Assembly (NCBI GenBank): GCA_936450465.1
Contig: OW388293.1
Coordinates: 46,490,040-46,554,039 of the forward strand
Direction of reading: 5' to 3'
Length of the DNA: 64,000 bases
Origin: Gibbula magus
Taxonomy: Eukaryota > Mollusca > Gastropoda > Trochida > Trochidae
Shown here: piece by piece, positions 3,880-45,318 of the stretch
Position numbering within the stretch: position 1 is the first letter of the stretch
How the letters are laid out: the number at the start of each line of letters is the position of its first letter
Made by a program: the position numbers and the translations under genes
The notes under the pieces: model-generated
What the model was told of the DNA's origin: nothing
The model's database searches: none
What the model saw: only the letters and a program-made list of their open reading frames with translations

Positions 3880-3912
3880 CTCGAGGAGGTCTCGAGGAGG
3901 TCTCGAGGAGGT
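3880..3912. repeat. 11-bp tandem repeat, three units
   Basis: CTCGAGGAGGT is repeated three times head to tail. The same site in element B (14,300-14,343) has four units, so copy number has changed since the two elements diverged. Confidence 0.85.
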
Positions 3913-4668
3913 AACGGTACTGTAATTAGCACAGTCCCGGGGGGACCAAGCAGTGCCAGTAAATTGGTGCGCGTCGGGACCATTCACGTGGTACTGTCGG
4001 GGTAGCGTCACTCTCCTTTGGTTGGTTATATTTTCTGAACCATAAGTCGTATTCTAATAATTTTTATGTCATTGTAAAGAGGAATAAACTATCTACAAGC
4101 ACATGCGCGCTCAGGAGTTTTGATTTCATGAAGCTGGAAATAAAGACAAACTTTAGATGACAATAGAATTATAACCATAGGTCGCATTCTAATATTTTTT
4201 ATATCATTGTAAAGACAAACATCTGGTCTTCAAGTCCATATAAAAATTTCAGTAGCGCGCTCCAAATTCATGATGTTATAAGGCCCGAATTAAAGACAAT
4301 CTTTACAAAGGAATAGAAAAGTAAAGAAAAATCGTAAAAAAATAATTCGAAGATGCGGGTATAAAGCAACCATTTGTGTACGGGTGCCGCGACTTGAATT
4401 TGTATTCAACGCCCGTATATAGCCCGTATTCGCCATGTAGATGCGGTATATTTCGTAAAAACGGTACCGGAATCGCCGCCTGGAAATTCCGCCAGCAGAG
4501 CTCGTTAGTGCCTAAGCTCAAACTACTGCTGCGAGCTGCGAGCCTGTAAATTCCGCCACAGGGGCTAAAAAGGGTAAAATATATATACGCAACGTAAGGG
4601 TTAAGACAATTCTCAAGTAATTTTTATTGACAAAGAACCACCAATTGACACTGCTTGACATCCATGAA

Positions 4669-8347: not shown

Positions 8348-8486
8348 TCCTACTTCAACTTAAAACTATCTCAGAAATTGAGGAACATCCGATGGAATTG
8401 GAAGAGGCAATCGGAACAAGGCAAAGTATATGTAGCACGGACTGCAAAGATACAAATGAGGAATCTCAAGCGTATTGAAACCAATG
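8348..8486 (+). CDS. Cassette gene exon A1
   Basis: 139 nt, phase 0 to 1, between TTTATTTCAG and GTAAGTGA. It encodes SYFNLKLSQKLRNIRWNWKR followed by a Gln/Lys-rich tail ending in ETN. It should join to an unseen C0 exon upstream of the window. Confidence 0.75.
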
Positions 8487-11400
8487 GTAAGTGAATCTTG
8501 AATTTTTTTTTATCCAAAAACGTAATATGAAATTAAACACCGCTTATTGGTTGCTGAAAAATCATAAACTCTTCCATCATACATTGTATTATAGCTAAAA
8601 TGGATGGAATTATCATGAAACCGCCATCTTGTTATCAGAAATGAGCGGGCCACTGCAAATGATAACGGCCCTCTCAACGCTGACGACGGGCCGTTATCAC
8701 TGTGTTTCTAAGTGACGTCACTTTAGAATCTCCTCTTGCAATTAGAACAAATATGGCGACCAAATGAGAGTATCGACTCACTTATTTTAAAACATTTTCT
8801 GAAACGAGGACACATAATTTTGCCAAATGATATCATAAACACAATGTGACAATACAATCGCACTGTTTTTTAAGTGTTTTAAACAAAATAAAGAAGAATA
8901 TCGTTCTCAGTCACCTCCGGTAGACCTTCAATGTTGGATTTAGGTAGCCTAAGTGCGCATGCATCCTCAACTTGGTAAATATGTAATGATTCGTTGATAT
9001 TCATCATTTTACTGGATGGTTATATAATAAGACACGCCTATGCATCAATATGATAATCCTTCGTCGGGCAGTTAATTGAAGACCTCAGGCTTCTGCAAAT
9101 GATAATGCCCTGAGAAACAACGTTACCCCAATAGTATTGGTACTGATACTTTACAAACACCCATTGTAGGACAGGCTCATTGCAAGAGTAGCGATGCATT
9201 GTCAAAGCTTAATTAGTGAGTCTTATTTTTAGCTCATCAGGCCTGAAAGGCCCGATGGGCTAATGGCATGGCATGGTGTCCGGCGTCCGTCCATCCGTCC
9301 GTCCGTCCATCCGTAAACTTGTCGCTTTTTCGACTTCTTCTCCAGAACCAATGACTCCACAGAGCTGAAATTTTACTTGAAACTCCTTGGCCAATGGGGA
9401 TTCTAAATTGTAGATTTCGTGACCCCGTGACCCCAAATGGGGTCACCGGGGTCACATCCTTAAAAACCTATTTTCATCTCCTTTCCAGTTCCAAAAGGTC
9501 TAGAAAGCTGAAAAGTTGTGTGCAGACTCCTTGGCCAATGGGGATTCTAAATTGTAGATTTCATGACCCCATGACCCCAAATGGGGTCACAGGGGTCACA
9601 TCCTTAAAAACCTATTATCATCTTCTTCTCCAGTTCCAAAAGGTCTAGAGAGCTGAAAAGTTGTGTGCAGACTCGTTGGCCAATGGGGATTCTAAATTGT
9701 AGATTTTGTGACCCCGTGACCCCAAATGGGGTCACAGGGGTCACATCCTGAAAAACCTATTTTCATCTTCTTCTCCAGTTCCAAAAGTTCTAGAGAGCTG
9801 AAAAGTTGTGTGCAGACTCCTTGGCCAATGGGGATTCTAAATTGTAGATTTTGTGACCCCGTGACCCCAAATAGGGTAACCGTGGTCACATCCTTAAAAA
9901 CCTATTTTCATCTTCTTCTCCAGTTCCAAAAGATCTAGAGAGCTGAACAGTTGTGTGCAGACTCCTTGGCCAATGGGGATTTCTAAATTGTAGATTTTGT
10001 GACCCTGTGACCCCAAATGGGGTCACCGGGGTCACATCCTTAAAAACCTATTTTCATCTTCATCTCCAGTTCCAAAAGGTCTAGAGAGCTGAAAAGTTGT
10101 GTGCAGACTCGTTGGCCAATGGGGATTCTAAATTGTAGATTTTGTGACCCCGTGACCCCAAATGGGGTCACAGTGGTCATGATCTAAGAACCTATCTTTT
10201 GCTTTTAAACAATAACTTAAATAACTTAAATATTCAACTTCAGATAGTAAAGCAATGAAATCCTGATGAGCTACAGAGCCCATGGCTCTATTTTTGTAAA
10301 AATTGGAAGCAGGGTTAAGAATCGAACAGAGCTAAATCTTGTTATTGACACTGAGGGACGCTATTGTATTAACTTGAAGATCCATTTGAGTTCAATCGAT
10401 CTAGGTGTTTATATATTTGAGGCGAATTGGAATTTAGGGAATAAGAGACTAAACTGTTCTATTGGAAAAAAATTCTGAAACAAAATTTTAACAGATATTC
10501 CCGTTCACACATATATGCTATGAAATACATGATTAAAACACTGTCAGATTAAAAGATATGAAGTTACGTTAATATTTCGATGATTTTATATTCCACAAGT
10601 TCGTAAAGACAAGCGAACATTGTTGAAAAATGTAAACAATGAAGTAATTCTTCGGCCCTGTGATTTGGGAAAACGTGGCTATGGCATAACAGCAATTCTT
10701 TATTAGTTTTATGGTACATTTTGTGCTACTATGTGAATATTCTATTGGTGTATATCTTATATTTTGAAAGTTTGGCGCAATATAGTGTGTTTTCATTTCA
10801 TGTAATGCAAAAAATCATGCATGTCATTGAGACATGTAAATCCTATTATCAGTGGCCGTTGTTCAAAGTCACTCAAGCACGTTGTCAAACCAGACATCCT
10901 CCAACCATGCAAGATTATCTCACAATCCCTTCTCACCTATTAAAATGGCAGTTACCATCATCATGTGGTATAATAACAAATGTGACAAGAACAATCTTCA
11001 AAAATGTCAGTCTCATTAATTTCAGGATGCATTTAGTCTCAACCCTAGCACTATCATTAATTTCATGATTTACAGTATTCACCAAGATCCCAGGAAAAGT
11101 TGAACGAGCTTGGAAACTCCGAATACAGCTGACAGATCCAAACAGGCAGGATACGACCAAAAAGCATGTTCCGGAGCCTTCAAACGGACCAGAAATTGCT
11201 GAGCTTGCAGTTGGAGATGCTGACCAAAGTTATAAGGTATAATGCTTTTAATAACAATTATTTTCTTCAATATCTAATTTATTTTGAGTTTTAACTCATC
11301 GATTGGCGTATGGAATGGCATGGTGTCCGGCGTCCGTCCGTCTGTAAACTTTTCGCATTTTCGTCTTCTTCTCTAGAACCACTTAATCTAGGGAGCTGAA

Positions 11401-17400: not shown

Positions 17401-20400
17401 CAGAGCATCCAAGGAGCGGTCTCTCGAGGCGGAGCCCGGACCCATGGGAGCATACTCCCATGCTCTCCATGAATTCCCGTCCCCGTCTTCCGCGGCGGAC
17501 ACCGGATTCAATCGCGGGACAGGTTTCCCATGTTCTCTTTTGAGAACGAGAGACTCCGAGGAACAATCCTGTGGGACGAACCCCGGATTCTATTGGGAAT
17601 GGGTTCCCATGCCCTCTCGACATATATAGCAGAAACCTTCATACCTCGGAATGACACGAACCTTTATTTCAAAGTAGAAAAAAAAAAATAATTTGCACAA
17701 AAAGTTTGGGGGGTGGCGACCAAAAGCGGGGGGGTCCGCGCACCCCCGGTAGATAGTTATAGTTGTTGGTCGGTCCCGAAGATGACGGACCACGCCCATG
17801 TTCATGGGAATTTTTTCTCATTATGTCATGGCGAATCCCGTCGGAAATTCCCCTGCTCACGAAAAAACTAATACCTAAAAAAGTAATTGTGATACAAAAG
17901 AACTTTGGTAATAAAAGTGGTGAGGAATCAAATTCTCCATCTGCTCAGTTCAGTCCGCTACACCTATAAATAATTCTTCAAATCTTATTGAATGAAACGT
18001 CTCTTTTTCAATAATGTAAAAGATAAAATAATAAATTCAATTCAAATGGTTTGGAAGGGTGCGCCCTCGCATTTGAATTTTAGAAATGCAAACCTTTCGC
18101 AAATGGCATCAGTAAAAAAAATGTTCACGCATTTTTAGAAACTCCGAAAAGTGAAATATTTTCCTGAGAAAATATTCCCACGAAAAGGCTTTTCCCCGAG
18201 CGGCGGGTCCCGTACTCAAATATATTTTCGCTCTTATGTTATATTTTTTTTTCCAAAACTGGAAATAAAATTCCGTCATGACAGTTGTTCATCGTTTATA
18301 AAGCTCTATATTTGCGTATCAAAAGAACAGTATTTTAGTTATATATTATCATACTTCTTCACTTATGCGTACATCAATATTGCGGCGCTTCGCGTATGCA
18401 TAGTTCTTCCCAAAAACATGCGCATTATATCTGGAATTAAAGACAATCTTTTCCTCTTTACAATGATGTAAAAATTATAAAAATCGGACTTGCGGTTCAC
18501 AATTTATAAAGCCCGTAATGATGGTATATGCTAAGAGCGCCACTTATTCAAAGCCGAATATCACCTTCTGCGCGACACCTGGCGCATCAAAAGTTATTGC
18601 CGAAAATACACGTATTTTATATGGAATTGAAGACAATTCTTTTATCTATATACTGATAAAAAAATTATGAAAATATCCCAAGTAGTTTCTTAGAAATAGA
18701 GCGCCGAGGCATGTTGGGGTAAATGCGCCACATGTATCAAAATTCAAAAGTGCGAAAGTCGCCTATCTCTGTGCGATTGCTGTATTTTCTGTTATGTTAG
18801 CGCAATTGCGATTTTTATATGGGAATAAAGGCCATTCTTTCCTCTTTAGTTTGGTATAAAAAAAAACAACCAATTGGTTCATATGATACGAAGTGCGAGA
18901 GAAAGGTAGCTTATCGCAATATCTTCCCGTAATTAGAGGCTATCTGCCCATGTGGCGGGATGCGAGACAGATAAGCATAGGGCAGTGTAGCTATCGGAGC
19001 GAAGCAGGACAAAATTGGCCTTTTGTAAAGCTAATTATCGATGCGTTACGGGTCAACAATGCACACACAAATTGGTGTGAATTTTGCTGGACGTTCTGAC
19101 CAGACACTGAACAAAGCTTTATTCTCATTGCGGGCTGCGAGGCATAAATACAGCCATTCTCATGCAGCGAGTCGCGGAAACAATCGACTCGGGACTCGGT
19201 ACGGGGGGATAGAAAAGTACTTAGACAGCCGTGAATTCTTCTAAGTAAGCGATCCGGGATCCGTATTGAGGTACCTCAGAATCGCTTATAGCCCGCCCGG
19301 ATAATTCCGGGACCCGTATGTTAAGGGTTAAGTTTATGATTTACAGTAATCATCTGAAGTGAATATTACCGTTATCACATTGTCATGGTTTTGAAAGTTC
19401 ATTTAGTGTTCTCCTTTATTTCAGTCCTACTTCAATTTAAAACTATCTCAGAAATTGAGGAACATCCGATGGAATTGGAAGAGGCAATCGGAACAAGGCA
19501 AAGTAGTACGGACTGTAAAGAGACACAAGAAGTATCTCAAGCCTTTTGAAACCAATGGTAAGTGAATTGTGAAAACAAATTTATCCAAAAATGTACTACA
19601 AAATTAACACTGCTTATTGGTTTCTGAAAAATCATAAACTCTTCAATGAAGTAATTCATCGGCCCTGTGATTTTGGGAAAACGTGGCTATGGCATAATAG
19701 CAAATTGTTTATTAGTTTTATGGTACGTTTTGTGCTACTATGTGAAAATTCTATTGGTATATATCTTATATTTTGAAAGTTGAAAAATTTGGTGCAATAT
19801 AGTGTGTTTTCATTTCATGTAATGCAAAAAATCATGCATATCATTGAGACATGTAAATCCTATTATCAGTGGCCATTGTTCAAAGTCACTCAAGCACGTC
19901 ATCGAACCACAAATCCTCCAACCACGCAAGATTATCTCATGATGTCTGTTTCTTTCTGAAATGGCAGTTTCCCTAATCATTTGGTATACCGGTAGGAACA
20001 AATGTGACAAGAACAATCTTCAAAAATGTCAGTTGTATTAATTTCAGGATGCATTTAGTCTCAACCCTAGCACTGTTATTAATTCCATGACAAATTAATT
20101 TCATGATTTACAGTATTCACCAAGATCCCAGGAAAAGTTAAACCAGCTAGGAAACTCAGAACACAGCTGACAGATCCAAACAGGCAGGATACGACCAAGG
20201 AGGATGTTGTGGAGCCTTCGAAGGGACCAGAAATTGCTGAGCTTGCAGTTGGAGATGCTGACCAAAGTTACAAGGTATAATGCTTTTAATAACAATTATT
20301 TTCTTCTATATCTAATTTATTTTGAATTTCAACTCATCTGGCCTGAAAGGCGAGATGGGCGTATGGAATGGCATTGTGTCCGGCGTCTGCTGTCTGTAAA

Positions 20401-23400
20401 CTTTTCGCATTTTCGTCTTCTTCTCCAGAACCACTGGGAGCTGAAATTTTGTGTACAGACTTATTGGGGATTCTTAATTGTAAAATTGGTGACCCTGTGA
20501 CCCCAAATAGGGTCAAGGGGGCACGACTTTAAAAACCTATTTTTATCTTCTTCTTCAGTTCCAAAAGGTCTAGAGGGCTTAAAAGTTGTGTGCAGACTCC
20601 TTGGCCAATTGGGATTCTAAATTGTAGATTTTGTGACCCAGTGACCCTAAATAGGGTCACAGGGGTCACGACCTTAAAAACCTATTTTCATCTTCTTCTC
20701 CAGTTTGCGCCGCTAATGGCTGCAATACTGCCAAAGCGGCGTTAAACAATAACTCACTCACTCTTCTCCAGTTTCAAAAGGTCTGGAGGGCTGAAAAGTT
20801 TTGTGCAGACTCCTTTGCCAATGGGGATTCTAAATTGTAGATTTTGTGACCCCCTGACCGCAAACAAGGTCGCAGGGATCACAGGGATCACGACTTTAAA
20901 AACCTATTTTCATCTTCTTCTCCAGTTTGCGCCGCCTATAGCTGCAATACTGTTGAAGCGGTGTTACTCACTCACTCACTCACTCTTCTCCAGTTCCAAA
21001 AGGTCTGGAGAGCTAAAAAGTTGTGTGCAGACTCCTTGGCCAATTTGGGATTCTAAATTGTAGATTTTGTGACACCGTGACCCCAAATAGGGTCACAGGG
21101 GTCATGACTATGAAAACCTATTTTCATCTTCTTCTCCAGTTCCAATTGGTCTAGAAATCTGAAAAGTTGTGTGCAGACTCCTTGGCCAATGAAGATCCTA
21201 ATGTAGATTTCTTGATCCTGCGACCCCAAATATAGGTCACAGAGGTCATGATCTGAAAACTATTTTCATCTTGAGATTTTATGTTCCCTTCAAAGGGAGG
21301 TAATTAAAGGAAACAACAGTGATGAATTAAATCTTCAAGGGTGTCCTTATTTATAGGGGCTTTTATCTCTGGCCTCAAAGATAGTCAGAGGGGTCAGGAC
21401 CTTAAGATCTATTTCATCTTCTCCGTTTAAAGTGCTTCCTATTTGTTGTACCTCTCACCTTGAAGTTGACATTTTGAATTAGTTAATAAAGCCTGATGAG
21501 CTACAGAGCCACTGGCTCTATTTTTTTTCTTTGGTTTTAGTACAGTATAAATACAAAGGTTGGCTCATTTTAAAATGCTATTACCAAAACAAACACTACT
21601 ATGGGAATCTCACATTAATGCACTATGCTATATAACTATATATATATATATATAGATGATCATTTCATTGAATTATGTCTTTAGTCAAATTTTGAAAATA
21701 CAAAGTAAGCTAAAATTCTGATATTGTTTCAGTCATCAGTGTCCATGGATGCTCTCATCACACTAAAAAGATCCCCCAGCTTGGACCAGATTTCAACACC
21801 ACAGACCGAAGACAGTCCAGGCACCAGCAGATCCAACATCGAAGCATATCTCCCCACTTACTCCACAATTATTTACAAAAGACTAAGAACTGAAGGGAAA
21901 CTGGGGAACCTCTACAACAAGTTCATTGAAGAGACAGCGTATCATGTGTTTAGCATTGGCGGAATGGACAAACCAGGAATGTATGATGAATTCGGGGCTT
22001 TCATGTGCCACAAGTTCCCCTGTCTCGTCCATTCTGAAGGGAACAGAGATTGGGTGTGTATTTTTCTCGTACCACATTTGTTGATTTGATATTAATTGCG
22101 TTCTTTAAACTTACTCTACATTGTAAGCTGTTGTAACTCATAAGGGAGATATATCTGCAATGATAAGTAGTTTTCCGCATCAGATGTCAAGATTGTAAAA
22201 GAAGTGGATTATTCTGGATCAAACTCTTTGAATTACTACCTCATGTTTATAATGTAAATCATTAAATTAATGCAAGCATTTTCTTAATGCGAAAATGTGT
22301 CTGTACTGATCTCACATTATTAAAAGGGCGCATTTTAGTCCTACCAACTTCATAAAAGAAAAACAGAAATGTAAATATATTGTGATGTTACCACTGATCA
22401 TTGCAATACAAAACAATTAAAACATTTCTCAAGTAATTTTTATTCACAAAGAACCACTGGTTGACATCCTTTAAGCTTGTTCATCAGTCATACTTTGACG
22501 ACAACCACAGTTTTAACATTTAGACATTCAACAGTCGTTGGTCATTGTTCAAAATCGTTCAAGCACGTCAGCCAGACTGGACATCCTCAAACCATGCAAT
22601 ATTACATCACAATCTCTACTCACGTTTGATATAGTTGTTTCAATCCACCTGGTGTGAAGCACTTTCACTTAGCTAATTCATATATCTATAATAAGTATTT
22701 TGCAAATAATAAGGAAAAAATATTCGGGGCTCACATTAATTTCAGGACGCATTTTAGGCTTGACCCTCGCACTAGCAAAAAATTTCATAAGTTCATTAAG
22801 TTCATGATTTACAGTAATCATCTGAAGTAAATATTACCGTTATCACATTGTCATGCTTTTGAAAGCTTATTTCGTGTTCTCCTTTATTTCAGTCCTACTT
22901 CAATTTAAAACTATCTCAGAAATTGAGGAACATCCGATGGAATCGGAAGAGGCAATCGGAACAAGGCGAAGTAGATGTAGCACGGACTGCAAAGAGACAA
23001 AAGAAGATTCTCAAGCCTTTTGAAACCAATGGTAAGTGAATTGTGAAAAAAAAATTATCCAAAAATGTACTACAAAATTGAATTATTGGTTGCTGGAAAA
23101 TCATAAACTCTTCCATCATAAATTGTAGTATTGGTACTGATACTTCACAAACATCCATGGTAGGACAGGCTCATTACAATAGTAGCGATGCATTGTCATA
23201 GCTTAATTAGTGAGTCTTATTTTTGTAAAAACTGGAAGTGGGGTTAAGAATAGAACACTGAGGGACGCTATTGTCTTAACTTGAAGATCCATTTGAGTTC
23301 AATCGATCTACGTGTTTATATTTTGAAGCGAGTTGGAATTTAGGGAATAAGAGACTAAACTGTTCTATTGGAAACAAAATTTTATCGGATATTCCCGTTC

Positions 23401-26400
23401 ACACATATATGCTATGAAATACATGATTAAAACACTGTCAGATTAAAAGATATGAAGTTACGTTAATATCAGGGATGCAGAAATCGGTCTATTTGCCGGA
23501 CATGTCCGATTGTATATCCAGTTTGACCGAATGGAAAATTGACCTATCGGACATCAGTTGACCGATTGCAGAAAATAAAAGGAAAACTAAACTTACAAGC
23601 ATATTAAATAAAGGCAAACGGCCCTGCTTGTGTCGGTCATAATTGTTTATGAAATTGAAATATGTTGATCCAGTCAAGAAGTCATATTTATTCTTCACAG
23701 CACGAGGCACGACGTCAATCATCATTATCTTCAGTAAATTATAATTGTCGGCAGAAAAAACACTTACCGTTTGATATTTAATTGCAATTTCCAGTGTCAT
23801 TTAGTGACTGAAAGATATGACCCATTTCACAACATTATTTACGAAAAAGGTAACATATTGTAACAAAATATGATAGATCAATATCGATGTATGGTAAAGC
23901 TATTTAAAAATTCAAAATAAATAAACCTATCAAAAACAAATCATTAGCAGTAGTCAAACACCGTTTGTATGACGCTACGAACACGCGATCGCATTTACAT
24001 GATGACACACGTTATAAAGAGGTACGCTAATTTAAAAACTCCAATTTCTCTTGCGTTTACATTAGTTCTTTTTATTTTGTAATTATTTATTTACAATGCG
24101 AAATATGTCTCCAAATAAAATATAAAAGTAATCTTAGTAGAATAAGTTCAAATTCGTAACTACATCTTGAATAGGAAATAGTCGTATGGAAAATAGTTGG
24201 ACCACGTGCTCTGCCGAGTTGTGAGTTTACGTAAATTATATCGCTATTGAAAACGAGTTCCTTTGAATTTAAAATGATTATTTAGAAGGTACATATCATT
24301 TGGTCCATGATTGGAACTTTTGATGAACTATGTGCAATTAAATTATTAGAATTTTCTCGTCCATCTTGACGCAAATTCGCTTGTAAACTCGCTTGTGTAA
24401 ACTCGCTCAAACTAGCACTGTCGGTAAATCGTAGTTGGTAAACATTGATTTTAAATTATGAACCATTTTATGCATGTTAATGATAAATTAATAGTTGTCT
24501 TTAATTGCTTTCGTGTTATGTTTAATAGTATGCAATGAATGAAGAACCAACAAATAGTAATACTTTCTGATACTTTATTCATAAAAACAATTTTTACTTC
24601 CGGGTTCGTCTTTTTGGGTCAAAGATGAAATGTCCGACTGGCAAAAATTTGAATCTGCATCCCTGGTTAATATTTCGATGATTTTATATTCCACAAGTTC
24701 GTAAAGACGAGCGAACACTGTTGAAATATGTAAACAATGAAGTAATTCATCAGCCCTGTGATTTAGGAAAACGTGGCTATGGCATAACTGCAAATTGTTT
24801 ATTAGTTTTATGGTATGTTTTGTGCTACTATGTGAAAATTCTATTGGTGGCACTGTATATCTTATATTTTGAAAGTTGAAAAATTTGGCGGAATATAGTG
24901 TGTTTTCATTTCATGTAATGCAAAAAATCATGCATGTCATTGAGACATGTAAATTCTATTATCAGTGGCCGTTGTTCAAAGTCACTCAAGCACGTCATCT
25001 AACCACACATCCTCCAACCACGCAAGATTATCTCACGATGTCTGTTCCCTTCTGAAATGGCAGTTTCTCTCATCATTTGGTATACCGGTAGGAACAAATG
25101 TGACAAGAACAATCTTCAAAAATGTCAGTCTCATTAATTTCAGGATGCATTTAGTCTCAACCCTAGCACTGTTATTAATTCCATTACAAATTAATTTCAT
25201 GATTTACAGTATTAACCAAGATCCCAGGAAAAGTTAAACCAGCTAGGAAACTCGGAATACAGCTGACAGATCAGAACAGGCAGGATACGACCAAGGAGGA
25301 TGTTGTGGAGCCTTCGAAGGGACCAGAAATTGCTGAGCTTGCAGTTGGAGATGCTGACAATACTTACAAGGTATAATGCTTTTAATAACAATTTCTTCAA
25401 TATCTAATTTATTTTGATTTTTTTCTTTGGTTTTAGTACAGTATAAATACAAAGAGAAAATCATTTTAAAATGTTCAAACCAAAACATGCACTACGATGG
25501 GAAACTCACATCAATGCACTAGGCTATATTTTAATAGCTCATAATCATTTCATTGAATTATTTCTTATGTCCAATTTTGAAAATATAATGTAAGCTAAAA
25601 TTCTGATATTGTTTCAGTCATCAGTGTCAATGGATGCCCTCATTACACCAAAAAGATCCCCCAGCTTGGACCAGATTTCAACACCACAGATAGACGACAT
25701 TCCAGGCACCAGCAGATCCAACATCGAAGCATACCTCCCCACTTACTCCACAATTATTTACAAAAGACTAAGAACTGAGGGGAAACTGGGGAACCTCTAT
25801 AACAAGTTCATCAAAGAGACAGCATATCATGTGTTTAGCATTGGCGGAATGGACAAACCAGGAATGTATGATGAATTCGGGGCTTTCATGTGCCACAAGT
25901 TCCCCTGTCTCGTCCATTCTGAAGGGAAAAGAGATTGGGTGTGTATTTTTCTCATACCACATTTGTTAATTTGATAATTACCGTATATTACCGGGTATAA
26001 GTCGAGAATTTGATACCAAAAATTAGGGGGTCAAGGAGGGGGGTCGACTTATACACGGGGTATATGTTTCAGCCCCAAAAATCTAGAGGCCAGGTAAGTA
26101 TCTGCCAGCCCACCAAGTCGAACGGACGATGTTTACACCGGAAACATTTCACAAACATCGATGTCCAGTCAATATTAAATCATTGAATAAAAAACTTATG
26201 CTTTATTGTTGTCTTTTTAAAATACAAATTAAGCGTGATATATGAATAAAAAATTACATTTCAATCACGAAAGTTCATTAAAGTTTATATTATAATCTTC
26301 ACTATTACCTGACAAACATCGATCGATATCTAGCCTTGATGTAAGTCGAGTGACCCGATAACGTCACGTGGACCAATGAGATTCTACATAGAAGCCGGTG

Positions 26401-29400
26401 ACATGATAGATCCTCATGAAAAAGTAATCAAGTGTTTACGCAGAGAGAAGTGCAAACTACTGGTACGAGTAGACGTATAATTTCTGAGATGTTCTAACAT
26501 AATAGCATGTATTCAAAAATATTTAGAGAAATGTAAATTACCGATTGTCATTGTATTGTTACTGAGATGTTCACCATTCATTTTGTATAATAGTATATAC
26601 ATATTCAATACTTGTTAATAGACCGACGTGTGATTAAGGTTGTGAATATATTTGTTAATTGCCAGTCAGGGTAGTGATTCATTAGCGCATCCGGTAATTA
26701 TCTAAGCTTTGATGTTTAATTAACATTAATTGATAGTAATTAACAGTAGTTAAAGCCTGTCACTTCTCATCTCAAAAGTAAAAGCAATTTCTTTTTACGT
26801 CTTTTTCTACTAGGTAACAATTTGACTATTCACCGGTTATCTAATAAAGTTTTGTCAACATGTTGGTCGTAGTTTATTCGGCTTGATGAGAGGAAAATGT
26901 AATTTGATTGAAACAAATAATAACAGACACCGTGAGTCACAAGTTGTATTTTTTTATTGGTTGTTTACAACGTCTGAAAAATAAATTATCATTTAATAAT
27001 ATTTAGGGCAAAACAATTGATAAATCGATCGACATCACTGCTTACCAATCGCCGCTGTGTTGACTCTTGGGCATGTCGACTTGTCACTCGGTGTCAGTCA
27101 GAACGTGGTAAAAGGGGGGTCGACTTATACATGAGATATAGGGTTTTGACCAGTATTTGGGAAGTTGAGAAAGGGGGTCGACTTATACGCGGGGTCGACT
27201 TATACCCGGTAATATACGGTAAGTTCTTATAAACTTACTCTACCTTTTAAGCTGTTGTAACTCATAAGGGAGATATATCTGCAATGATAACTATTTTCTT
27301 CACATCAGATGTCAAGATTGTAAAAGAAGAAATGGATTATTCTGGATCAAACTCTTTGAATTAATACCTCATGTTTATACTGTAAATCATTTTATTTATG
27401 CGAAAAATGCATCTGTACTGATCTCGCATTATTAAAAAAATGCATTTTAGTCCTACCAACTCCATAAAATAACAGAAAACGTAAATATATTGTGGTCTTT
27501 ATCATCATGATGTTACCACTGATCAATGCAATACAAAACAATTAAGGAGAGATGGGACCATGAAACAAAATATTTTAGAATTCGTTTATTTTTTCAAAAT
27601 AGCAAGTTTATTATGTTATTTTCCAAAAATGTAAGAAAATGTTGGGGTCACCAAACGATTTAGAAAGTTATCAGCATTAATAATAATACTCCCATCGGCA
27701 AATTACGCCATTTTTGACTGATTTGATGTATTTAAATGAAGCGCTTGCTTTCGACAAATAAGCTCAGAATCCTTTCAAATACATTTGAGTTACATACGGG
27801 GATATACAGGCAAATTTAAGCGCTTCCCGTTAGTGTATGGATAAACCTGTGCCCCAAACAATGTAATCCACATATGTTGAGACTTATTAGTTGTTGTTGC
27901 AAAATGTTACCATAAGCGAGTTCGATTTCTGGGTCCCATCTCTCCTTAAAACATTTCTCAAGTAATTTTTATTATACCCCCGCTTAATTCATTCCGTCCG
28001 TCCTTCCGTCCGGTCAATTTTCTCAAAAACCGTCAAAGGTACATCAACCAAACTTTGTACAGTTGTTAACCATGTTCTTCCGATCGCGCAGAGACAATTT
28101 TCAATTTTCTGGGATTTAAATTTTTTGTCGTAATTCTCAATGGATGGACAGCGGATGGCGGGGGTATGTGAGCCATGCTCACATGTTTCTTGTTGACAAA
28201 GAACCACTGATTGACATCCATTAAGCTTGTTCATCAGTCATACTTTGACAACAACCACAACTTAACATTTACACATTCAACAGTCGTTGGTCATTGTTCA
28301 AAGTCGTTCAAGCATGTCAGCCAGACTGGACATCCTCAAAACATGCAATATTACATCACGATCTCTACTCACGTTTGAAATAGCGGTTTCAATCCACCTG
28401 GTGTGAAGCGCTTTCATTTCACTAATTCAGAAATCTACAGTCAGTGTTTCGCATTTTGATAAAGAAAATAGATTCGTGACTCACATTAATTTCAGAACGC
28501 ATTTTTAGGCTTGACCCTTGCGCTCGCATTAATTCCATGACGCATTAATTTCTTGATTAACAGTATTAATCTGAAGTAAATATTACCGTTATCACATGTC
28601 ATGTTGTCAAAAGTTCATTTCGTGTTCTCCTTTATTTCAGTCCTACTTTAATTTAAAACTATCTCAGAAATTGAGGAACATCCGATGGAATCGGAAGAGG
28701 CAATCGGAACAAGGCGAAGTAGATGTAACTTGGGCTGCAAAGAGACAAGAGAATTCCCTCCAGCCTATTGAAACCAATGGTAAGTGAATCATGTAAACTA
28801 AGTTTAATACAAAAATGTATTACAAAATTTAACACTTCTAGGTGCTGAATAAGTCGTAAACTCTTGCACCATAAATTGTAGTATTGTTACTGATACTTCA
28901 CAAATACCCATGGTAGGGCGGGCTCATAACAAGGGTAGCAGTGCATTGTCATAGCTTAATTAGTCAGCCTTATTTTTGTAAAAACTGGAAGTGGGGATGA
29001 GAATAGAACAGGGCTAAACAGGGTTCACACTTTATAATTATCAATAATGTATCATAGTATATTTTGTCACCGTTAAAATTTTGAATGTTTTGTTAAACTT
29101 TCACAAAACTGTCAGTATGAAATTCTAAACATTGTCGCCTCGTCTCACCGAGGGATGCTTTTGTCTTGAAGATCCATTTGAGTTCAATGGATCTACATGT
29201 TTTTAACCCCCAGGTGAAACCGAAGGGGGTTTATGTCGTGGCGCAGCCCGTCTGTCCGTCCGTCCATCCGTCCCAAAAGGGTTACTTGTGTTCTGAAATC
29301 AACTCCTCCCACAGTTTTTGGTCACTCTCTCTGATACTTTACACATGCTTTGGATATACATCGGTGATACGCATATTTTTAGAGTTATGGCCCTTGACTT

Positions 29401-32400: not shown

Positions 32401-35400
32401 AGTTTCCATCATCATTTGGTATAATAACAAATGTGACAAGAACAATCTTCAAAAATGTCAGTCGTATTAATTTCAGGATGCATTTAGTCTCAACCCTAGC
32501 ACTGTAATTAATTTCATGACAAATTAATTTCATGATATACAGTATTCACCAAGATCCGAGGAATAGTTGAACCAGCTAGGAAACTCCGAACACAACTGAC
32601 AGATCCAAACAGGCAGGATACGACCAAGGAGGATGTTGTGGAGCCTTCGAAGGGACCAGAAATTGCTGAGCTTGCAGTTGGAGATGCTGACCAAAGTTAT
32701 AAGGTATAATGCTGTATTTTCTTCAATATCTCATTTTAAAAATATTTTTCTTTAGTTTTACATTTCTTTATAGGGATTGTAACGTTCCTACAGAGGTTTA
32801 TGACCTTGACCTTCATTTCAAGGAAACTCAAGAACCATTCTTTGGATTCTCTTCATATCTTACACATAGCTTCTCCAATTAAAGACAAAGAGCTGATTAG
32901 ATTGTAGTAATCTTATCATTATTCTCAAGGTCACAGCGGAACTTTGATTTTTTTTACATGTTAATGTACCGGTACATGTAAAGCTTGTCAGCGGGACATC
33001 TCAAAAATCATTCATCATAATTTCATCATATCTTACACAAAGCACCTCCTAGGGAAGACAAAGGGCTGATTAGATTTTGGTGACCATGACATTATTCTCA
33101 AGGTCACAGCAGAACTTTAACTTTGTCGACATGTTAACCCTTAACTTGCGGCTCCCGGCATGGTACGGGATGGCCATAAACAATTACTATGTTTCCCATA
33201 CCAGGTCCCGGATACTACACTTAGAATTATTTGTCTACCATTGAGCTAGTACTCAGCTAGCCCCCTCCGTGAGATGCGAGTCGAGTTGTCCCTGGGAGTC
33301 TCTCCATAAGAACCTCTGCATTATGCCTCGCAGTTCACCACAATGATGAGTCTTCAGGGGTAAAAAAATATGATTGCCCGTCTCCGAGGGCTAGTAAGAA
33401 ATACATTCGGGCAAGTAAAAAGTGCATTTCATTTTGCCTGGTGGCATGTAAACAATCAAAAGTCTTACTATCCGTATTTTCTCGTAATTTCCAATTGAAA
33501 CATTTTAAAAAAAAATTCATGGCTTTAGTTTTTCTGCATCACGAAACCAAACTATCAAAACTTCATAATTCGGGAAGAGTTACTTCCCTTTACTTTTATT
33601 TATGCCTAGAGGGGTAGGTCGTATTGAGACTGGGCTCCTTCCCGTAGTAATCAGTTAGGAGAGCGCAGTCGCTAACAGGTCAAATTCATAGTTGTGTACA
33701 TGGCGACGAAGACGCCATACGGCTTTGATAATGTCACAGCGGTCGATTGCGAGTTTCTTTTGTGGGGGAAACATCAAAAGATAAATAGAAGACACAAAGG
33801 AAAGTATTTCTTCTAAAAATAAGAAATATGACAATGAAAAACGGGAAAGAAAATTGATTCCATCTTGGAAAGGCCTATATCCGTGGGTTGTTTACGATAA
33901 CGATGAAAATGTAATGAGGTGTGAAATATGTGTGAAATTCCCGGAAATAAACGCTAAATATAGAAAACATGCCTTTGTGGATGGGTGTAGCAATTTTAGA
34001 CTAGGATATCTAAAGAGTCATGACCAGTCTGACGCCCATTTGGAATGCCTTTCATATTACAAGGCGTCACAGAAATCGAAAGGAAAGACATGTACGGAAA
34101 ATTTTTCGAGTACAAACATTAGTCAGAGTACAAGTGAAACTGCTTCAAAAATAAAACCAATTATAAAGGCATTCCAATGTATTGACACTAACACTTTGAA
34201 AAGACTTGACAGGTTATTAACTGCTTTCCAGATTGCATATAGAGGTAAACCACTTACAGACTTTGAAGCAAATCTAGAATTACTAGATTGTTTAGACATT
34301 GATGTGAGAACAAAATATCGAAACAATGGTGGTGTACGTTCCTTTAAACATGCTGTAGCCAATTCTTTTCGGAAAAGTTTTCTAAATGAAGTAAAGAATG
34401 CCAGATTTCTGACAATTTTGAGTGACGGCAGCTATTATTATTGAACAGGAGACAGTGTTTATTGTACATACGGACGCCGCTGAATACATAGTCCCCCGTT
34501 CCGCGTTACGGTGGGGGACTATTTATTCAGCGGCGTTCGTACGTTCGACGTACGTATGTCTCAACGCGATATCTCATGAAGCTTTGTATTAAGAGTTTTC
34601 AAATTTCATGTCGGCCTACATTGGGGGAAGACGCAGACACCAGTCGATTTTGGTGATCATGACCTTATTTTCAAGGTCACCACGACACTTCGACCACTTT
34701 ATTGTCTCTTGTTAACATGATATCTCATGACCGGTTAGACATAATGTCTTTATATTTGCTGACAGCCTATATTGGTGGTTTACACAGACACCAGTCGATT
34801 TGGATGACCTTTACCTTAATTTCAAGGTCACCACAATGCTTTGACCACTTTTCGAACTCTTGTTAACGCAATATCTCATGAACCCAAGCACCCAAAGCAT
34901 CTCAAAGTTGGTGTCAGTCTACATTGGGATATGAAGCAGACACCAGTCGATTTTGGTGACCTTGACCCTTTTTTCAAGGTGACTGACACTTGACCAAATG
35001 ATGTGTCTTACTAAACCCAATGTTAACAGCGGGGGACATTGCCATGTTAGTGGCAAACACTTGTTAGATATGTGAGTGCGTCTGGGGAACCAGTTTCATT
35101 CCATGCTTCAACAGTACCACTTGCACACTGTCATGCTGATGGTGTGCTTGAAGGGATCAAGTCTGCTGTATCAACACTGGGATTTACCTGTGAAAATATT
35201 GTAGACCCGGACTATAATGGACCTCATCTTGTGTCAGTTAAATTTGATGGAGCTGCTGTGATGCTGGGGTTGAAAGGTGGTGTGGCAGCCAAAATAAAGG
35301 AAGATGTAAATCATGTTGTGCCAGCACATTGCATAGCGCACAAGCTAGAACTTGCTGTGTTAGACTCTGTCCAAAATTTGACACAGCTTGCAAGATTTGA

Positions 35401-38400: not shown

Positions 38401-39502
38401 AAGCTAAAATACTGTTGTGAGCTGGAGGGTCTGTAAATTCCGCCATGGGGGCTAAAATGGGTAAAATAGAAATACGCAACTTCAGGGTTAAGCTTGTCAG
38501 GGGAATCAATATCACAAGAATTGTTCATTGGATTCTCATCATTATCTTACACCAGTGTTTTTTTAGGGAAAATTCAGGGCCCAGTTGATTTTGTTGGTCT
38601 TGACATTATTTTTCATTTTGAAGTATTAATTTGCGGTGAGGGATCATGTCACCTTAGTGACAACTTCTTGTTTTTAGTGGCACATGATCATTTCATTGAA
38701 TTATGTCTTAACTCCAATTTTATGAATACAAGGTAAGCTAAAATTCTGATATTGTTTCAGTCATCAGTGTCCATGGATGCCCTTATCACACCAAAAAGAT
38801 CCCCCAGCTTGGACCAGATTTCAACACCACAGACCGAAGACAGTCCAGGCACCAGCAGATCCAACATCGAAGCATACCTCCCCACTTACTCCACAATTAT
38901 TTACAAAAGACTAAGAACTGAGGGGAAACTGGGGAACCTCTATAACAAGTTCATTGAAGAGACAGCGTATCATGTGCTAAGCATTGGTGGAATGGACAAA
39001 CCAGGAATGTATGATGAATTCGGGGCTTTCATGTGCCACAAGTTCCCCTGTCTCGTCCATTCTGACGGGAAAAGAAAATGGGTGTGTATTTTTCTCGTAC
39101 TACATTTGTTAATTTGATAATTACATTCTTAACTTACTCTACATTTTAAGCTGTTGTAACTCATAAGGGAGATATATCTGCATTGATCAGTAGCTTGCAA
39201 GTTTCTCCACATCTGATGTGAAGATGAGAAGAAGAATAAATGGATTATTTTGGATCAAGTAACATTAAACTTTGAATTACTATTTCATGATTATATGCAT
39301 CTGAAGGAGGTAAATCTGTCTGTAGTAAATGTCACATTGTCATGCTTTTAAAAGTTCATTTTGTGTTCTCCTTGATTTCAGTCCTACTTCAACGCAAAAC
39401 TATCTCAGAAATTGAGGAATATCCGATGGAGGTGGAAGAGGCAATCAGAACAAGGCGATGCAAATAGACAAAGGAAGTATCTCAAGCGTCTTAAAAACAA
39501 TG
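8348..39502 (+). CDS. Tandem three-exon-cassette gene (partial; 13 exons seen)
   Basis: One multi-exon gene is inferred from exons A1-B1-C1-A2-B2-C2-A3-B3-C3-A4-B4-C4-A5, listed separately. All have matching splice sites: A after TTTCAG with GTAAGTG donor, B after TTTACAG or ATACAG with GTATAATG, C after TTTCAG with GTGTGTA. Phases join without a break in every case, giving a 207-residue repeat. Across the C-to-A junction the protein reads DEFGAFMCHKFPCLV...DW then SYFNLKLSQKLRNIRW, probably one folded unit. B is acidic and low in hydrophobics (PEIAELAVGDADQSYK). C begins with a Ser/Pro-rich linker. I recognise no named domain. Only in-frame indels occur in exons (A2 lacks 6 nt, A5 lacks 18 nt), while introns are full of insertions, which suggests selection on the protein. 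The first exons lie upstream of the window, and the 3' end is uncertain (see 45,208). Confidence 0.75.
8595..9130. mobile_element. unclassified insertion in intron A1-B1
   Basis: The paralogous introns run from CATAAATTGTAG directly to TATTGGTACTGATAC (about 23,120). Here about 535 bases intervene. They include the GCAAATGATAA motif near both sides (about 8,656 and 9,096) and a hairpin ACGGCCC...GGGCCGT at about 8,665-8,695. The ends are not clear enough to classify. Confidence 0.5.
9231..10288 (+). mobile_element. Helitron-like non-autonomous element H2
   Basis: It begins AGCTCATCAGGCCTGAAAGG and ends CCTGATGAGCTACAGAGCCC followed by ATGGCTC. That gives an 11-bp inverted match (AGCTCATCAGG / CCTGATGAGCT) and a 3' hairpin AGAGCC...GGCTCT. 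TATTTTT flanks it on both sides (9224-9230 and 10289-10295). The empty site is visible at 23,220 and 28,972 (CTTATTTTTGTAAAA). The core is a 145-bp tandem array. The tandem core, subterminal inversion, 3' hairpin and T-rich target suggest a Helentron / HINE ('pearl'-like) element. The classification is inference. Confidence 0.65.
9391..10260 (+). repeat. 145-bp tandem repeat core (six units)
   Basis: CCAATGGGGATTCTAAATTG recurs at 9391, 9535, 9680, 9825, 9970 (one base inserted after it) and 10116, spacing 144-146. Each unit holds the near-palindrome GGGGTCACAGGGGTCAC around GACCCCAAATGGGGTC and ends with TCTTCTCCAG. Open frames across it are by-products of the repeat. Confidence 0.9.
11076..11236 (+). 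CDS. Cassette gene exon B1
   Basis: 161 nt, phase 1 to 0, between ATTTACAG and GTATAATG. It encodes FTKIPGKVERAWKLRIQL, then a Lys/His/Pro-rich stretch and PEIAELAVGDADQSYK. It differs from B2-B4 in KKHVPEPSN (others KEDVVEPSK). Confidence 0.75.
11294..12300 (+). mobile_element. Helitron-like element H3 (decayed 5' end)
   Basis: It starts ACTCATCGATTGGCG, has degenerate 145-bp core units, and ends GCCTGGTGAGCTACAGAGCC then AGTGGCTC before a T-run. It lies in intron B1-C1 at the place where intron B3-C3 (about 25,418) has only TTTTGATTTTTTTC, the empty site. Confidence 0.6.
12508..12828 (+). CDS. Cassette gene exon C1
   Basis: 321 nt (107 codons), phase 0 to 0, after GTTTCAG and before GTGTGTATTT. 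It begins SSVSMDALITPKRSPSLDQI, has a Ser/Thr/Pro linker to about residue 33, then a helical-looking part with LRTEGKLGNLYNKFIKETAY and MYDEFGAFMCHKFPCLV, ending in DW. Confidence 0.78.
14300..14343. repeat. 11-bp tandem repeat, four units
   Basis: ACCTCCTCGAG is repeated four times; it is the reverse complement of the three-unit array at 3,880-3,912 in element A. Confidence 0.85.
15212..17116 (-). CDS. piggyBac transposase copy B, N-terminal frameshift
   Basis: This frame covers 634 aa of the same transposase as element A, including all three catalytic aspartate motifs (VDEGM, FMDNYY, GGVDRADQ) and the C-terminal cysteine-rich zinc domain. The original start (complement 17,242-17,244) is present, but a one-base loss near 17,147 (GACTTCATGACGAG against GACTTCATCAACGAG in copy A) shifts the frame and leads to an early stop. 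Only an internal Met at 17,116 opens the remaining frame, costing about 43 residues. There are scattered substitutions against A (W to C in DYWSTSDV, T to A in VTTYNKYM). It may be inactive, or translated from the internal Met; the catalytic core is complete. Confidence 0.85.
   Translation of the reverse strand: MESTDSDGSSGLDSDDAYDRDTVIDSEHGDTDGMSDIETEIARKILAAGNSTEEDFSGFEEEFADIPQYNQNNSQTFDEWVDGPRPRVNLPFTGQTGLRQFIELPENPEPIDFFNLFIHNDDYEDMATETNRYFKQAMEDKILRPRSRMQQWQDTNAEEMKVFVAMTIAMSLVVQRNFADYCSTSDVTSTPFFAKCMPLERFWLLITYLHLADNRRMPGRNTPCFSPINKLGHLYNRIVHRFSRVYKPHQNISVDEGMVPWKGNLSFKVYLPDKPKKYGIKAFMLCDSHNGYVCKFKLYTGKTNEPVSEGGKTYDVVMDLVNDYVGQGHHIFMDNYYSSTNLYINLWERGIGATGTLRANRKGLPDSVKKPKKKAKQGDMTVSHNHGLLVLRYEDRKSVLLMSTVEDTQLEQTGKKNRATGEPVLKPRIVTAYNKYMGGVDRADQMLSYTPFRVKTLKWWKRVWFHVLNVAMLNSYIVYKEYSKDKPLKTSREYRKALAQHIVTFADKEQVPSLCRPPRGRPSTSDESVTRLHGRHFPTKIEPIGRKKNVTRMCVVCSKAKRAVLAKQIEEGNGPARKKKRVGRESSYECTDCNVSLCAAPCFKLYHTATDYSRAYITATEKERNEEGNEEEEN
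19425..19557 (+). CDS. Cassette gene exon A2
   Basis: 133 nt, phase 0 to 1, splice sites as A1. An in-frame 6-nt deletion shortens the tail (GKVVRTVKRHKKYLKPFETN). It joins C1 across intron 12,829-19,424, which contains piggyBac B. Confidence 0.75.
20114..20274 (+). CDS. Cassette gene exon B2
   Basis: 161 nt, phase 1 to 0, ATTTACAG/GTATAATG. It encodes FTKIPGKVKPARKLRTQL and ends GDADQSYK. Intact. Confidence 0.75.
20707..20762 (+). mobile_element. short SINE 3' fragment with 12-bp TSD
   Basis: GCGCCGCTAATGGCTGCAAT ... AAGCGGCGTTAAACAATAAC ending in an ACTC repeat. CTTCTCCAGTTT flanks it on both sides (20695-20706 and 20763-20774). The motif is one I recall from abalone-like gastropod SINEs. 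Confidence 0.7.
20939..20984 (+). mobile_element. second SINE 3' fragment at the equivalent site
   Basis: GCGCCGCCTATAGCTGCAAT ... GCGGTGTTACTCACTCACTC, flanked by CTTCTCCAGTT. It sits at the same position of the next core unit as the copy at 20,707, which suggests that a unit already carrying the SINE was duplicated. Confidence 0.65.
21629..21654. repeat. (AT)n microsatellite
   Basis: An imperfect TA/AT run in intron B2-C2; absent from the other copies of this intron. Confidence 0.8.
21733..22053 (+). CDS. Cassette gene exon C2
   Basis: 321 nt, phase 0 to 0. Differences from C1 are few (ALITLKRSP, FIEETAYHV, SEGNRDW). Splice sites are unchanged. Confidence 0.78.
22893..23031 (+). CDS. Cassette gene exon A3
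   Basis: 139 nt, phase 0 to 1. It reads SYFNLKLSQKLRNIRWNRKR, then a tail with VDVARTAKRQKKILKP. Intron C2-A3 (22,054-22,892) is the shortest of its class, free of large insertions, and serves as the reference empty site. Confidence 0.75.
23470..24665. mobile_element. non-autonomous hAT element, perfect 8-bp TSD (1,196 bp)
   Basis: Ends CAGGGATGCAGAAATCGG and ...GAATCTGCATCCCTG are inverted repeats. GTTAATAT is duplicated exactly (23462-23469 and 24666-24673). The paralogous intron has ACGTTAATATTTCGATG once (about 10,568). No convincing transposase is inside; a 103-aa reverse frame at 23,489-23,800 has no recognisable features. Confidence 0.9.
25210..25370 (+). CDS. Cassette gene exon B3
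   Basis: 161 nt, phase 1 to 0, ATTTACAG/GTATAATG. Ends GDADNTYK where other copies have DQSYK. Intron B3-C3 is only 247 bases and lacks the Helitron-like insertion. Confidence 0.75.
25618..25938 (+). CDS. Cassette gene exon C3
   Basis: 321 nt, phase 0 to 0. Differs by TPQIDDIPGTS in the linker. Splice sites unchanged. Confidence 0.78.
25981..27219. mobile_element. TA-flanked DNA transposon, non-autonomous (1,239 bp)
   Basis: Perfect 25-bp terminal inverted repeats starting CCGTATATTACCGGGTATAA, with a second internal GGGTCGACTTATAC motif at both ends. TA on each side (25979-25980, 27220-27221) fits a TA target duplication of the Tc1/mariner type, but other superfamilies are possible. The paralogous introns C1-A2 and C4-A5 lack it. 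No transposase frame. Confidence 0.8.
27546..27945. mobile_element. 400-bp MITE in TTAA
   Basis: Inverted ends GGAGAGATGGGACC / GGTCCCATCTCTCC, flanked by TTAA (27542-27545 and 27946-27949). The paralogous intron reads ACAATTAAAACATTTCTC (about 13,210), the empty site. piggyBac element A occupies the same TTAA in the upstream cassette (4601-4604). The ends differ from that piggyBac family. Confidence 0.85.
27974..28190. mobile_element. short repeat with TACCCCCGC / GCGGGGGTA ends
   Basis: Absent from the paralogous intron, which reads TAATTTTTATTGACAAAG. It starts TACCCCCGC, contains TTTTCTCAAAAACCGTCAAA, and ends GCGGGGGTATGTG with a hairpin GTGAGCCATGCTCAC. Related copies lie at 36,292-37,195. 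No gene. Confidence 0.65.
28641..28779 (+). CDS. Cassette gene exon A4
   Basis: 139 nt, phase 0 to 1. SYFNLKLSQKLRNIRWNRKR kept; the tail differs (VTWAAKRQENSLQPIETN). Confidence 0.74.
29206..29546. mobile_element. interspersed repeat starting AACCCCCAGGTGAAACCGAA
   Basis: Contains CCGTCTGTCCGTCCGTCC and TCTGAAATCAACTCCTCCCA, shared with 40,615-41,030. Non-coding; class unknown. A duplicated piece of the host intron (TTGAAGATCCATTTGAGTTC) lies on its left and again at 31,440. Confidence 0.5.
29551..30789. mobile_element. piggyBac deletion derivative C (1,239 bp)
   Basis: TTAA flanks at 29547-29550 and 30790-30793. Left end CCCTTACGTTGCGTATATAT; right end reversed CCCTTAACTTGCGGGTCCCG. Left 450 bases resemble the left end of B (13,595 on) and right part resembles 18,4xx-19,327, but the transposase gene is absent. 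This is a non-autonomous member that element A's enzyme could in principle mobilise (inference). Confidence 0.88.
31073..31354 (+). mobile_element. Helitron-like 3' fragment
   Basis: Core-unit pieces (GGGGATTCTAAATTCTAGAT, CTTCTTCTACAG) followed by the 3' end CCTAATGAGCTACAGAGCCC and a T-rich target. No 5' end. Confidence 0.55.
31866..32225. mobile_element. palindromic element with two head-to-head tRNA-like sequences
   Basis: 31,866-32,191 is one long inverted repeat (arms about 157 bases, centre near 32,028, short loop CATTTTGTCGAG). Each arm holds a tRNA-like stretch. The A-box-like part is TGGTAAGCTGTTGG. The B box is GGTTCGAATCC on the reverse-strand copy but GGTTAGAATCC on the forward one. 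A 34-nt unpaired A/T-rich tail (32,192-32,225) follows. An 11-bp duplication AATATATATTG brackets the whole (31855-31865, 32226-32236). Paralogous introns read straight through (10,775; 19,796). The one-sided tail and long duplication suggest LINE-driven insertion like a SINE; a fold-back DNA transposon is the alternative. Confidence 0.8.
32543..32703 (+). CDS. Cassette gene exon B4
   Basis: 161 nt, phase 1 to 0, ATATACAG/GTATAATG. Encodes FTKIRGIVEPARKLRTQL and ends GDADQSYK. Intron B4-C4 (32,704-38,760) holds the nested insertions. Confidence 0.75.
32760..33133. repeat. interspersed repeat, left part (continues at 38,492)
   Basis: Repeated motifs TATCTTACAC, GACAAAGGGCTGATTAGATT and CTCAAGGTCACAGC. 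It resumes after piggyBac D at 38,492-38,680 and ends near GGGATCATGTCACCTTAGTG. Similar repeats at 34,570-35,060 and 49,430. Non-coding. Confidence 0.55.
33808..36291 (+). pseudogene. hAT transposase relic, ZNF862-like
   Basis: Coding pieces in order. First, 33,808-34,440 gives KRERKLIPSWKGLYPW, a TTF/BED-like zinc finger (CEIC ... LKSHDQSDAH) and LTILSDGS. Next comes a small frame change, after which IIEQETVFIVHT continues to about 34,482. After an inserted repeat, 35,065-35,410 (VSFDGAAVMLG-type region, VPAHCIAHKLELAV) belongs to the RNase-H-like core. Then 35,446-36,177 (KQVRWLASKIYAVQAL) leads to a stop, and 36,178-36,291 (LMFVVSPGTAVCERL) is the start of the hAT dimerisation motif. Stops, frameshifts and two insertions make it non-functional. 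The family assignment is from memory of ZNF862-type proteins. Confidence 0.75.
34483..35062. mobile_element. repeat inserted in the hAT transposase
   Basis: Opens with a hairpin (ACGCCGCTGAATACATAGTC ... GACTATTTATTCAGCGGCGT, 34,483-34,535), followed by three imperfect ~130-base units with ATCTCATGA and CAAGGTCACCAC. Ends GCGGGGGACATTGCCATGTT. Coding frame of the hAT resumes after it. Confidence 0.6.
36292..37195. mobile_element. repeat related to 27,974, inserted in the hAT
   Basis: Begins ATACATAGCGGTCATTCCG, shares TTTTCTCAAAAACC and CAACCAAACTTTGTACAGTT with 27,974-28,190, and ends GCGGGGGTATG. Interior shows repeated GAACTTAGTA and GATACTCTTTATCGAGTTCG units of about 170-190 bases. Confidence 0.6.
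38761..39081 (+). CDS. Cassette gene exon C4
   Basis: 321 nt, phase 0 to 0, TTTCAG/GTGTGTA. Differences: TAYHVLSIGG and SDGKRKW. Followed by the shortest C-to-A intron (300 bases). Confidence 0.78.
39382..39502 (+). CDS. Cassette gene exon A5 (last A)
   Basis: 121 nt, phase 0 to 1, an in-frame 18-nt shorter version. SYFNAKLSQKLRNIRWRWKR with tail DANRQRKYLKRLKNN. It needs a phase-1 acceptor downstream; no B5 exon was found. Confidence 0.72.
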
Positions 39503-45207: not shown

Positions 45208-45318
45208 GAATCGGAAGAAGGAAATGAAAATGAAGAAGTTCTCAGTCTGATGAAGAGAATCGAAGAAAAACGGAAGTTGCAAAAGAGAGGGGTTCAAAGA
45301 AGGCATTTCCGGCCATAA
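45208..45318 (+). CDS. possible terminal exon of the cassette gene
   Basis: After TATCTTTTCAAG a 36-codon open frame reads ESEEGNENEEVLSLMKRIEE, then a basic end RRHFRP and a TAA. It is charged like the A tails. It would have to be entered in phase 0, whereas A5 ends in phase 1, so an unseen phase-1-to-0 exon must lie between or this is not the right exon. A GTAAGT at 45,421 and a TTTCTTTCAG at 45,656 with another 40-codon open stretch (to 45,776) suggest a further intron nearby. Confidence 0.3.
   Translation, partial: ESEEGNENEEVLSLMKRIEEKRKLQKRGVQRRHFRP

Follow-up and report, generated by a model that had tools for sequence, protein, structure and literature searches.

The window analysed here, a stretch of 64,000 nucleotides of Gibbula magus DNA, carries an array of exons that would make up the middle and the 3′ part of a single gene. 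As a divergent paralogue, this gene would belong to a molluscan family in which a SAM domain is followed by a basic helical domain without a name (called CA below) and a C-terminal region. We think it probable, if some way from certain, that this one gene was enlarged by unequal crossing-over and that its predicted product contains multiple CA domains. In this reading, a trio of exons, B-C-A, with phase-1 introns on either side was duplicated in tandem several times via unequal crossing-over within introns, and serial splicing would yield a protein in which the CA domains number at least four and probably five or more. Each of these would be an all-helical and strongly basic unit of ca 98 residues, and the linkers, of ca 100 residues, would be made up of the tail of exon A, an orphan SAM helix from exon B and the start of exon C. 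Selection would maintain the C part of every CA copy, with the linkers free to drift.

The array comprises thirteen exons on the + strand between positions 8348 and 39502, in the order A-B-C four times and then A5, with limits fixed from the sequence (Table 1). All of them have an AG acceptor and a GT donor; the acceptors end in CAG, and the donors read GTAAGT for A, GTATAA for B and GTGTGT for C. Exon A starts in phase 0 and ends in +1, B is always 161 nt and C 321 nt long, and the lengths of the A exons differ by multiples of three. When joined, the exons form an open frame of 866 residues with phases that fit at 12 of 12 junctions, and neither a stop codon nor a frameshift is found in them. 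The thirteen open exons and their matching phases had been put forward in a preliminary description and are borne out. Its figure of 207 residues per round holds for most rounds, but one round (that with A2) has 205, and A5 is shorter still. The peptides of the C and A exons were located at these places by a scan of the window. Against the family profiles the C exons reach 75.6–80.2 bits and the A exons 41.3–47.9 bits, and the B exons are weaker, with B2 and B3 matching the family and neither B4 nor B1 doing so by itself. Since C4 and A5 score highest, the last copy, ending in A5, is probably the ancestral one.

Table 1. Exons of the array and associated sequence features in the window; scores are those against the family profiles.
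Feature	Position	Strand	Length (nt)	Profile score	Remarks
C-to-A intron remnant	4601..4650	+	50		before A1; 92% to 13213-13262; adjoins transposon end with TTAA
Exon A1	8348..8486	+	139	44.9 bits	last helix of a CA domain (SYFNLKLSQKLRNIRW) and variable tail
Exon B1	11076..11236	+	161	E 1.4	orphan second SAM part and linker; alone too diverged for the family profile
Exon C1	12508..12828	+	321	75.6 bits	linker and first helices of the CA domain
Exon A2	19425..19557	+	133	45.2 bits	6 nt shorter than A1; completes the CA domain begun in C1
Exon B2	20114..20274	+	161	E 3.4e-5	best family match among the B copies
Exon C2	21733..22053	+	321	77.3 bits	
Exon A3	22893..23031	+	139	41.3 bits	
Exon B3	25210..25370	+	161	E 5.1e-4	
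Exon C3	25618..25938	+	321	75.6 bits	
Exon A4	28641..28779	+	139	42.2 bits	
Exon B4	32543..32703	+	161	E 0.28	alone weak against the family profile
Exon C4	38761..39081	+	321	80.2 bits	nearest to the relatives among the C copies
Exon A5	39382..39502	+	121	47.9 bits	nearest to the relatives among the A copies
Tentative decayed C-terminal piece	45208..45295	+		E 0.085	acidic, ESEEGNENEEVLSLMKRIEEKRKLQKRGV; weak
Tentative decayed C-terminal piece	45646..45772	+		E 1.9	followed by a stop; weak; collinear with 45208..45295

The relatives of the frame are found in oysters, mussels, pearl oyster and abalone, namely twelve uncharacterized SAM proteins (P0001–P0012) from Saccostrea, Crassostrea gigas (LOC105324467), Pinctada imbricata, Mytilus and Haliotis asinina. 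Exons B, C and A are collinear with them, and they encode all three in one protein. The CA domain of unit C3-A4 is 39–53% identical to the twelve over 92 columns, the best match being Haliotis P0011 (49/92), where it should be noted that the twelve are not independent (P0005, P0010 and P0012 are 94–98% alike, and P0007 and P0008 90%). The four CA units keep 21, 22, 21 and 22 of the 28 residues that are invariant in the relatives, and L182, I187, E190, W191, R219 and R258 are lost in all of them. Whereas each of the twelve relatives has one CA domain, as judged from the ETAY and LSQK motifs, the window has at least four. No relative with a repeated CA was found at E ≤ 1 among 668 candidates (866-residue join, region 120–330), which is weak evidence because the search missed known relatives of 521–614 aa although they were within its length range. 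By profile and fold, the SAM domain of the relatives is of the Polycomb type, and the Pfam SAM cut-off (SAM_1/SAM_2) is reached by four of the twelve (P0004, P0005, P0010 and P0012).

The preliminary description had recognized no named family. This stands for the CA part, which has no Pfam name, but the frame does have relatives among the molluscan proteins listed as uncharacterized. The joined unit gave only sub-cut-off matches to four Pfam families, the best being Catalase at E 0.011; the catalase and capsid rows, below the Pfam cut-offs, were taken as chance. With C-A, nothing under E 0.59 was found among PDB sequences, and an NCBIfam scan of two relatives returned no family. The locus points to a helical domain that is common to oysters, mussels and abalone and has no name in the Pfam and NCBIfam scans made. 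We found no literature on LOC105324467 and, among the matches listed for SAMD3 and for SAM proteins of molluscs, no description of the molluscan SAM-CA family. The CA and C-terminal patterns may resemble those of SAMD3-like proteins of fishes.

It is important to point out where the module begins and ends. The preliminary description was right about a tandem cassette of three exons, but its cassette A-B-C is not the natural unit. In the relatives, B makes up the second part of the SAM domain and is followed by C-A, from which B-C-A emerges as the natural module. Relative to P0001, exon B begins at residue 47, within SAM helix 4 (residues 44–50 in the P0001 model), and codes only for the end of helix 4 and for helix 5. 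The internal units contain B only and have no five-helix SAM fold, as the A exon that precedes an internal B supplies a CA helix and the tail, not SAM helices 1–3. Exon C ends at the invariant Trp237 in the alignment of the relatives, and the residue after it is the first of exon A, which places the C-A joint inside one domain. That this joint lies within one folded unit had been suggested before and is supported in two ways: the alignment of the twelve relatives runs uninterrupted through it (...DPW/GYFNKKLSQK..., with the slash at the joint), and in the AlphaFold2 model of P0001 the helices encoded by C and A are in one helical domain (residues 171–250, pLDDT 79–92 per block of ten). CA can form four times in the array of the window.

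The trio B-C-A is bounded on both sides by phase-1 introns (symmetric 1-1) and therefore duplicates in frame. With these flanks, its tandem copies and its homologous introns, it has the features of a class 1-1 module. Exon B begins with TA in all four copies. The A exons end in G, giving Val at the A-B joint; a 5′ exon ending in A, itself not seen, would instead give Ile (ATA), the residue that most relatives have at the start of B (Asp-Ile-Phe, D-I-F).

The array is no product of chance, as its copies arose by genomic duplication in tandem and the duplicated stretches comprise intron sequence. Self-alignments of like exons have identities of 83.7–93.9% and extend into the introns, an example being 12246-13594 against 21463-22799 with 91% over 1364 columns. 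The introns differ by 8.6% between copies. In the 22 like-exon self-alignments, which are not independent pairs, 125 indels fall on the 6798 aligned bases of the introns (1.84 per 100), compared to none in 966 aligned bases of B and none in 1926 of C. If two independent pairs are counted for each exon, the Poisson probability of no indel is 0.003 for B and 7e-6 for C. For A, 16 alignment gaps in 1164 (1.37 per 100) were counted, which the aligner has split into pieces of 1–5 nt.

The lengths of the introns vary, with C-A gaps of 6596, 839, 2702 and 300 nt in the individual rounds, and they contain inserted piggyBac-type elements, a transposase-like frame with a C17orf113-type zinc finger and a 145-nt minisatellite. 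The shortest gaps are 556 nt for A2-B2, 247 nt for B3-C3 and 300 nt for C4-A5, which means that nothing large is hidden between the exons of the basic unit. At these places there is also no room for the end of a separate gene and a new start, and the A2-B2 gap contains neither AATAAA nor ATTAAA. The larger A-B gaps, of 2178–3763 nt, hold 5, 7 and 5 such words and have enough room for gene boundaries. In the one-gene reading, a single transcript would carry all copies. The 145-bp minisatellite is found at 7539-7790, 9382-10199, 11387-12088, 20465-21272, 31117-31294 and 42524-43078, that is, both within several introns of the array and to the left and right of it, and it could have helped the unequal crossing-over.

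At the left side, the 50 nt from position 4601 match the C-A introns, which indicates that a C-A intron preceded A1 and that an exon C0 is to be expected past the left edge. By profile, no exon for the N-terminal part of the SAM domain was found within the window; it would lie to the left of the edge.

We now turn our attention to selection between the copies. For exon C, the pooled pairwise values, from pairs that are not independent, are dS 0.14 and dN 0.021, with a ratio of 0.15. Counted as distinct changes, there are 15 synonymous and 11 nonsynonymous ones (P 1e-4 to 1.3e-3 for kappa 1–4). The dN/dS ratios of B and A are 0.88 and 0.97. The distinct changes in B (6 synonymous, 17 nonsynonymous) and in the tail of A (2 and 17 in A1, A3 and A4, the count omitting A2 and A5 owing to indels) give no sign of residue constraint, and the copies vary most in the A tail. 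In the first 16 codons of A, the 3 synonymous and 2 nonsynonymous changes (P 0.07–0.18) are too few to judge. These counts indicate that exon C has been under purifying selection since the duplications and that B and the A tail are relaxed. It has to be mentioned that some site patterns in exon C are at odds with a single tree (0101 three times, 0011 twice and 0110 once), which suggests exchange among the C copies and makes the selection ratios approximate.

The B copies have all lost Met50 and Gly56, which are invariant in the relatives, as would be expected if an internal B no longer forms a SAM domain. In addition, B4 has lost Pro52 and Lys54, and B3 has lost Phe48. We read this as a B exon in which frame and length would still matter and the SAM residues no longer do, alongside a C part of CA that appears to be kept. 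Both the absence of SAM helices 1–3 and the loss of family-invariant residues set the internal B copies apart from the molluscan relatives.

The process itself is a recognized one. Class 1-1 modules are described in PMC3927616 as being duplicated in tandem through intronic recombination and unequal crossing-over, and the phase-1 flanks, the tandem copies with their introns and the preserved frame are alike here. Unlike the modules described there, the present trio does not match a single domain; it starts within SAM, which is thereby split, and CA alone is multiplied. The growth of domain repeats often proceeds in blocks that comprise several domains, and nebulin has a recurring block of four exons (PMC1553488). 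As in that case, a fixed exon block recurs and exon borders lie inside domains, but the domain of the present array is unrelated, its copies are far fewer, and they are young, with introns that can be aligned. New here, in a known process, is a duplicated block that begins within one domain, with multiplication of the other one alone. Because the introns of the copies still align, the rough sites of breakage, the part that is kept (C of CA) and the drifting linker with half a SAM domain are visible, and the array can be regarded as a domain-repeat protein caught at an early stage of growth.

The product of such a gene may act as a multivalent binder, in which the array would hold a repeated or long partner more tightly. 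The basic charge of CA (pI 9.66 in the window, 9.35–9.91 in the twelve relatives), together with the Polycomb-type SAM of the relatives, suggests nucleic acid or chromatin as the partner, which is a guess. We consider it unlikely that the locus encodes a multivalent scaffold in which the basic CA is multiplied, SAM has shrunk to a linker helix and optional splicing of the trios sets how many beads a protein has.

Another option is that the trios are alternative cassettes, with a 5′ SAM exon spliced to any of the B exons and any of the A exons spliced to 3′ exons, such that isoforms vary in the number or choice of CA domains. This scenario is rather unlikely in our view, but several features are compatible with it. 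Namely, every B accepts a +1 donor and every A ends in +1, skipping of whole trios stays in frame, and the variability among copies is highest in the A tail. There is also a precedent in the sDscam genes of chelicerates, for which PMC4835542 reports tandem multi-exon cassettes at the 5′ side of one locus, used by promoter choice and splicing. Generally one sDscam cassette is used per protein, whereas for the present array serial inclusion is the mode that we favour, as predicted from the sequence. A B exon that is spliced to the N-terminal SAM exon should moreover be constrained, but its dN/dS is ca 0.9 and both Met50 and Gly56 are gone from every copy. The CA domain itself hardly varies among the copies, which argues against a diversification of domains.

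We have also considered that each C-A pair forms a small gene of its own, coding for a protein of ca 150 residues in which CA would be complete, with B as a leftover. An in-frame ATG is present near the start of all four C copies (SSVSMDALI...), and all five A copies, if read through the donor, reach a stop after NGK. This stop is, however, set by the conserved donor (GGTAAGTGA) and is not independent evidence. In a leftover, one would hardly expect length, frame and splice sites to be maintained across four copies, as they are in B with no indel in 966 bases against 1.84 per 100 in the introns, and the relatives have B, C and A in one protein. Separate C-A genes are for these reasons quite unlikely.

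The main weakness of the reading as a single functional gene is the missing convincing 3′ end. The C-terminal region of the molluscan relatives, with the pattern PPRL...YYxWDLSYPK...LLGFLQ, appears to be missing or decayed in the window, which could mean a truncated or dying gene. For its first part, the sub-profiles gave no convincing match downstream of A5. The score of a chain of collinear matches is 16.8, compared to 120 column-shuffled profiles that do not exceed 12.5 and a reversed profile that reaches 5.2. Without its third link (48274-48301, score 4.1, inside a palindrome and probably chance), however, the chain scores 12.7, hardly above the best shuffle. The shuffling of columns, furthermore, breaks up acidic stretches and so flatters the acidic match at 45208-45295. 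This piece runs into stops, and its possible continuation lies in another frame, which makes a frameshift probable. The two pieces at 45.2–45.8 kb are possibly a decayed 3′ end rather than exons. As C-terminal exons, a collinear match at 49179-49361 was not accepted, and one at 48268-48303 was rejected as part of the palindrome at 48268-48387, in which exact arm pieces of 30 and 12 bp flank a short loop.

From this side of the locus one could argue that the whole array is decaying, a recent pseudogene or untranscribed relic whose C-terminal region has been lost. The C-terminal pieces are indeed weakly recognizable and look frameshifted, and the introns contain transposons. In such a relic, however, one would not expect thirteen exons without a stop or frameshift next to introns that differ by 8.6% and have 1.84 indels per 100 bases, nor purifying selection on C since the duplications, and we judge this explanation to be very unlikely. 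An assembly artefact, with haplotypes or copies wrongly joined, is hardly credible even at a locus where repeats and transposons are common, considering that the C copies differ by ca 0.14 synonymous changes per site, that corresponding introns differ in length and insertions, and that four ordered successive rounds are hard to create by error.

Finally, the window contains a number of other features. Two piggyBac-type elements, at 1-4604 and 13591-18038, are inverted with respect to each other and ca 98% identical. Their transposase frames of 679 and 647 aa match DDE_Tnp_1_7 (E 9e-92 and 2e-89), one TTAA terminus is seen on each (4604 and 13591), and the two copies are likely young. The elements at 29547-30626 and 37421-38492, with ends of the TTAACCCT type, are also mutually inverted (86% over 1089 columns). 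They have ca 0.47 kb in common with the end of the piggyBac element and are probably non-autonomous copies. In the B4-C4 intron, at 33785-36177, three open pieces resemble a broken transposase, which we take to be hAT-like; the first has a C17orf113-type zinc finger (PF25431, E 4.5e-13) and the other two have no Pfam match. A reverse transcriptase fragment lies at 43088-43672 (RVT_1, E 0.00097, below the Pfam cut-off).

Further to the right, a single uninterrupted frame of 289 residues at 50872-51741 codes for a LIM-LIM-homeodomain protein. LIM-homeobox genes usually have introns in this part, and the frame may be an intronless copy. From 53088 up to the right edge at 64000, the window is occupied by a satellite with a 38-bp unit in ca 287 copies, in which the GC skew is −0.79 to −0.86 from 56 kb on.
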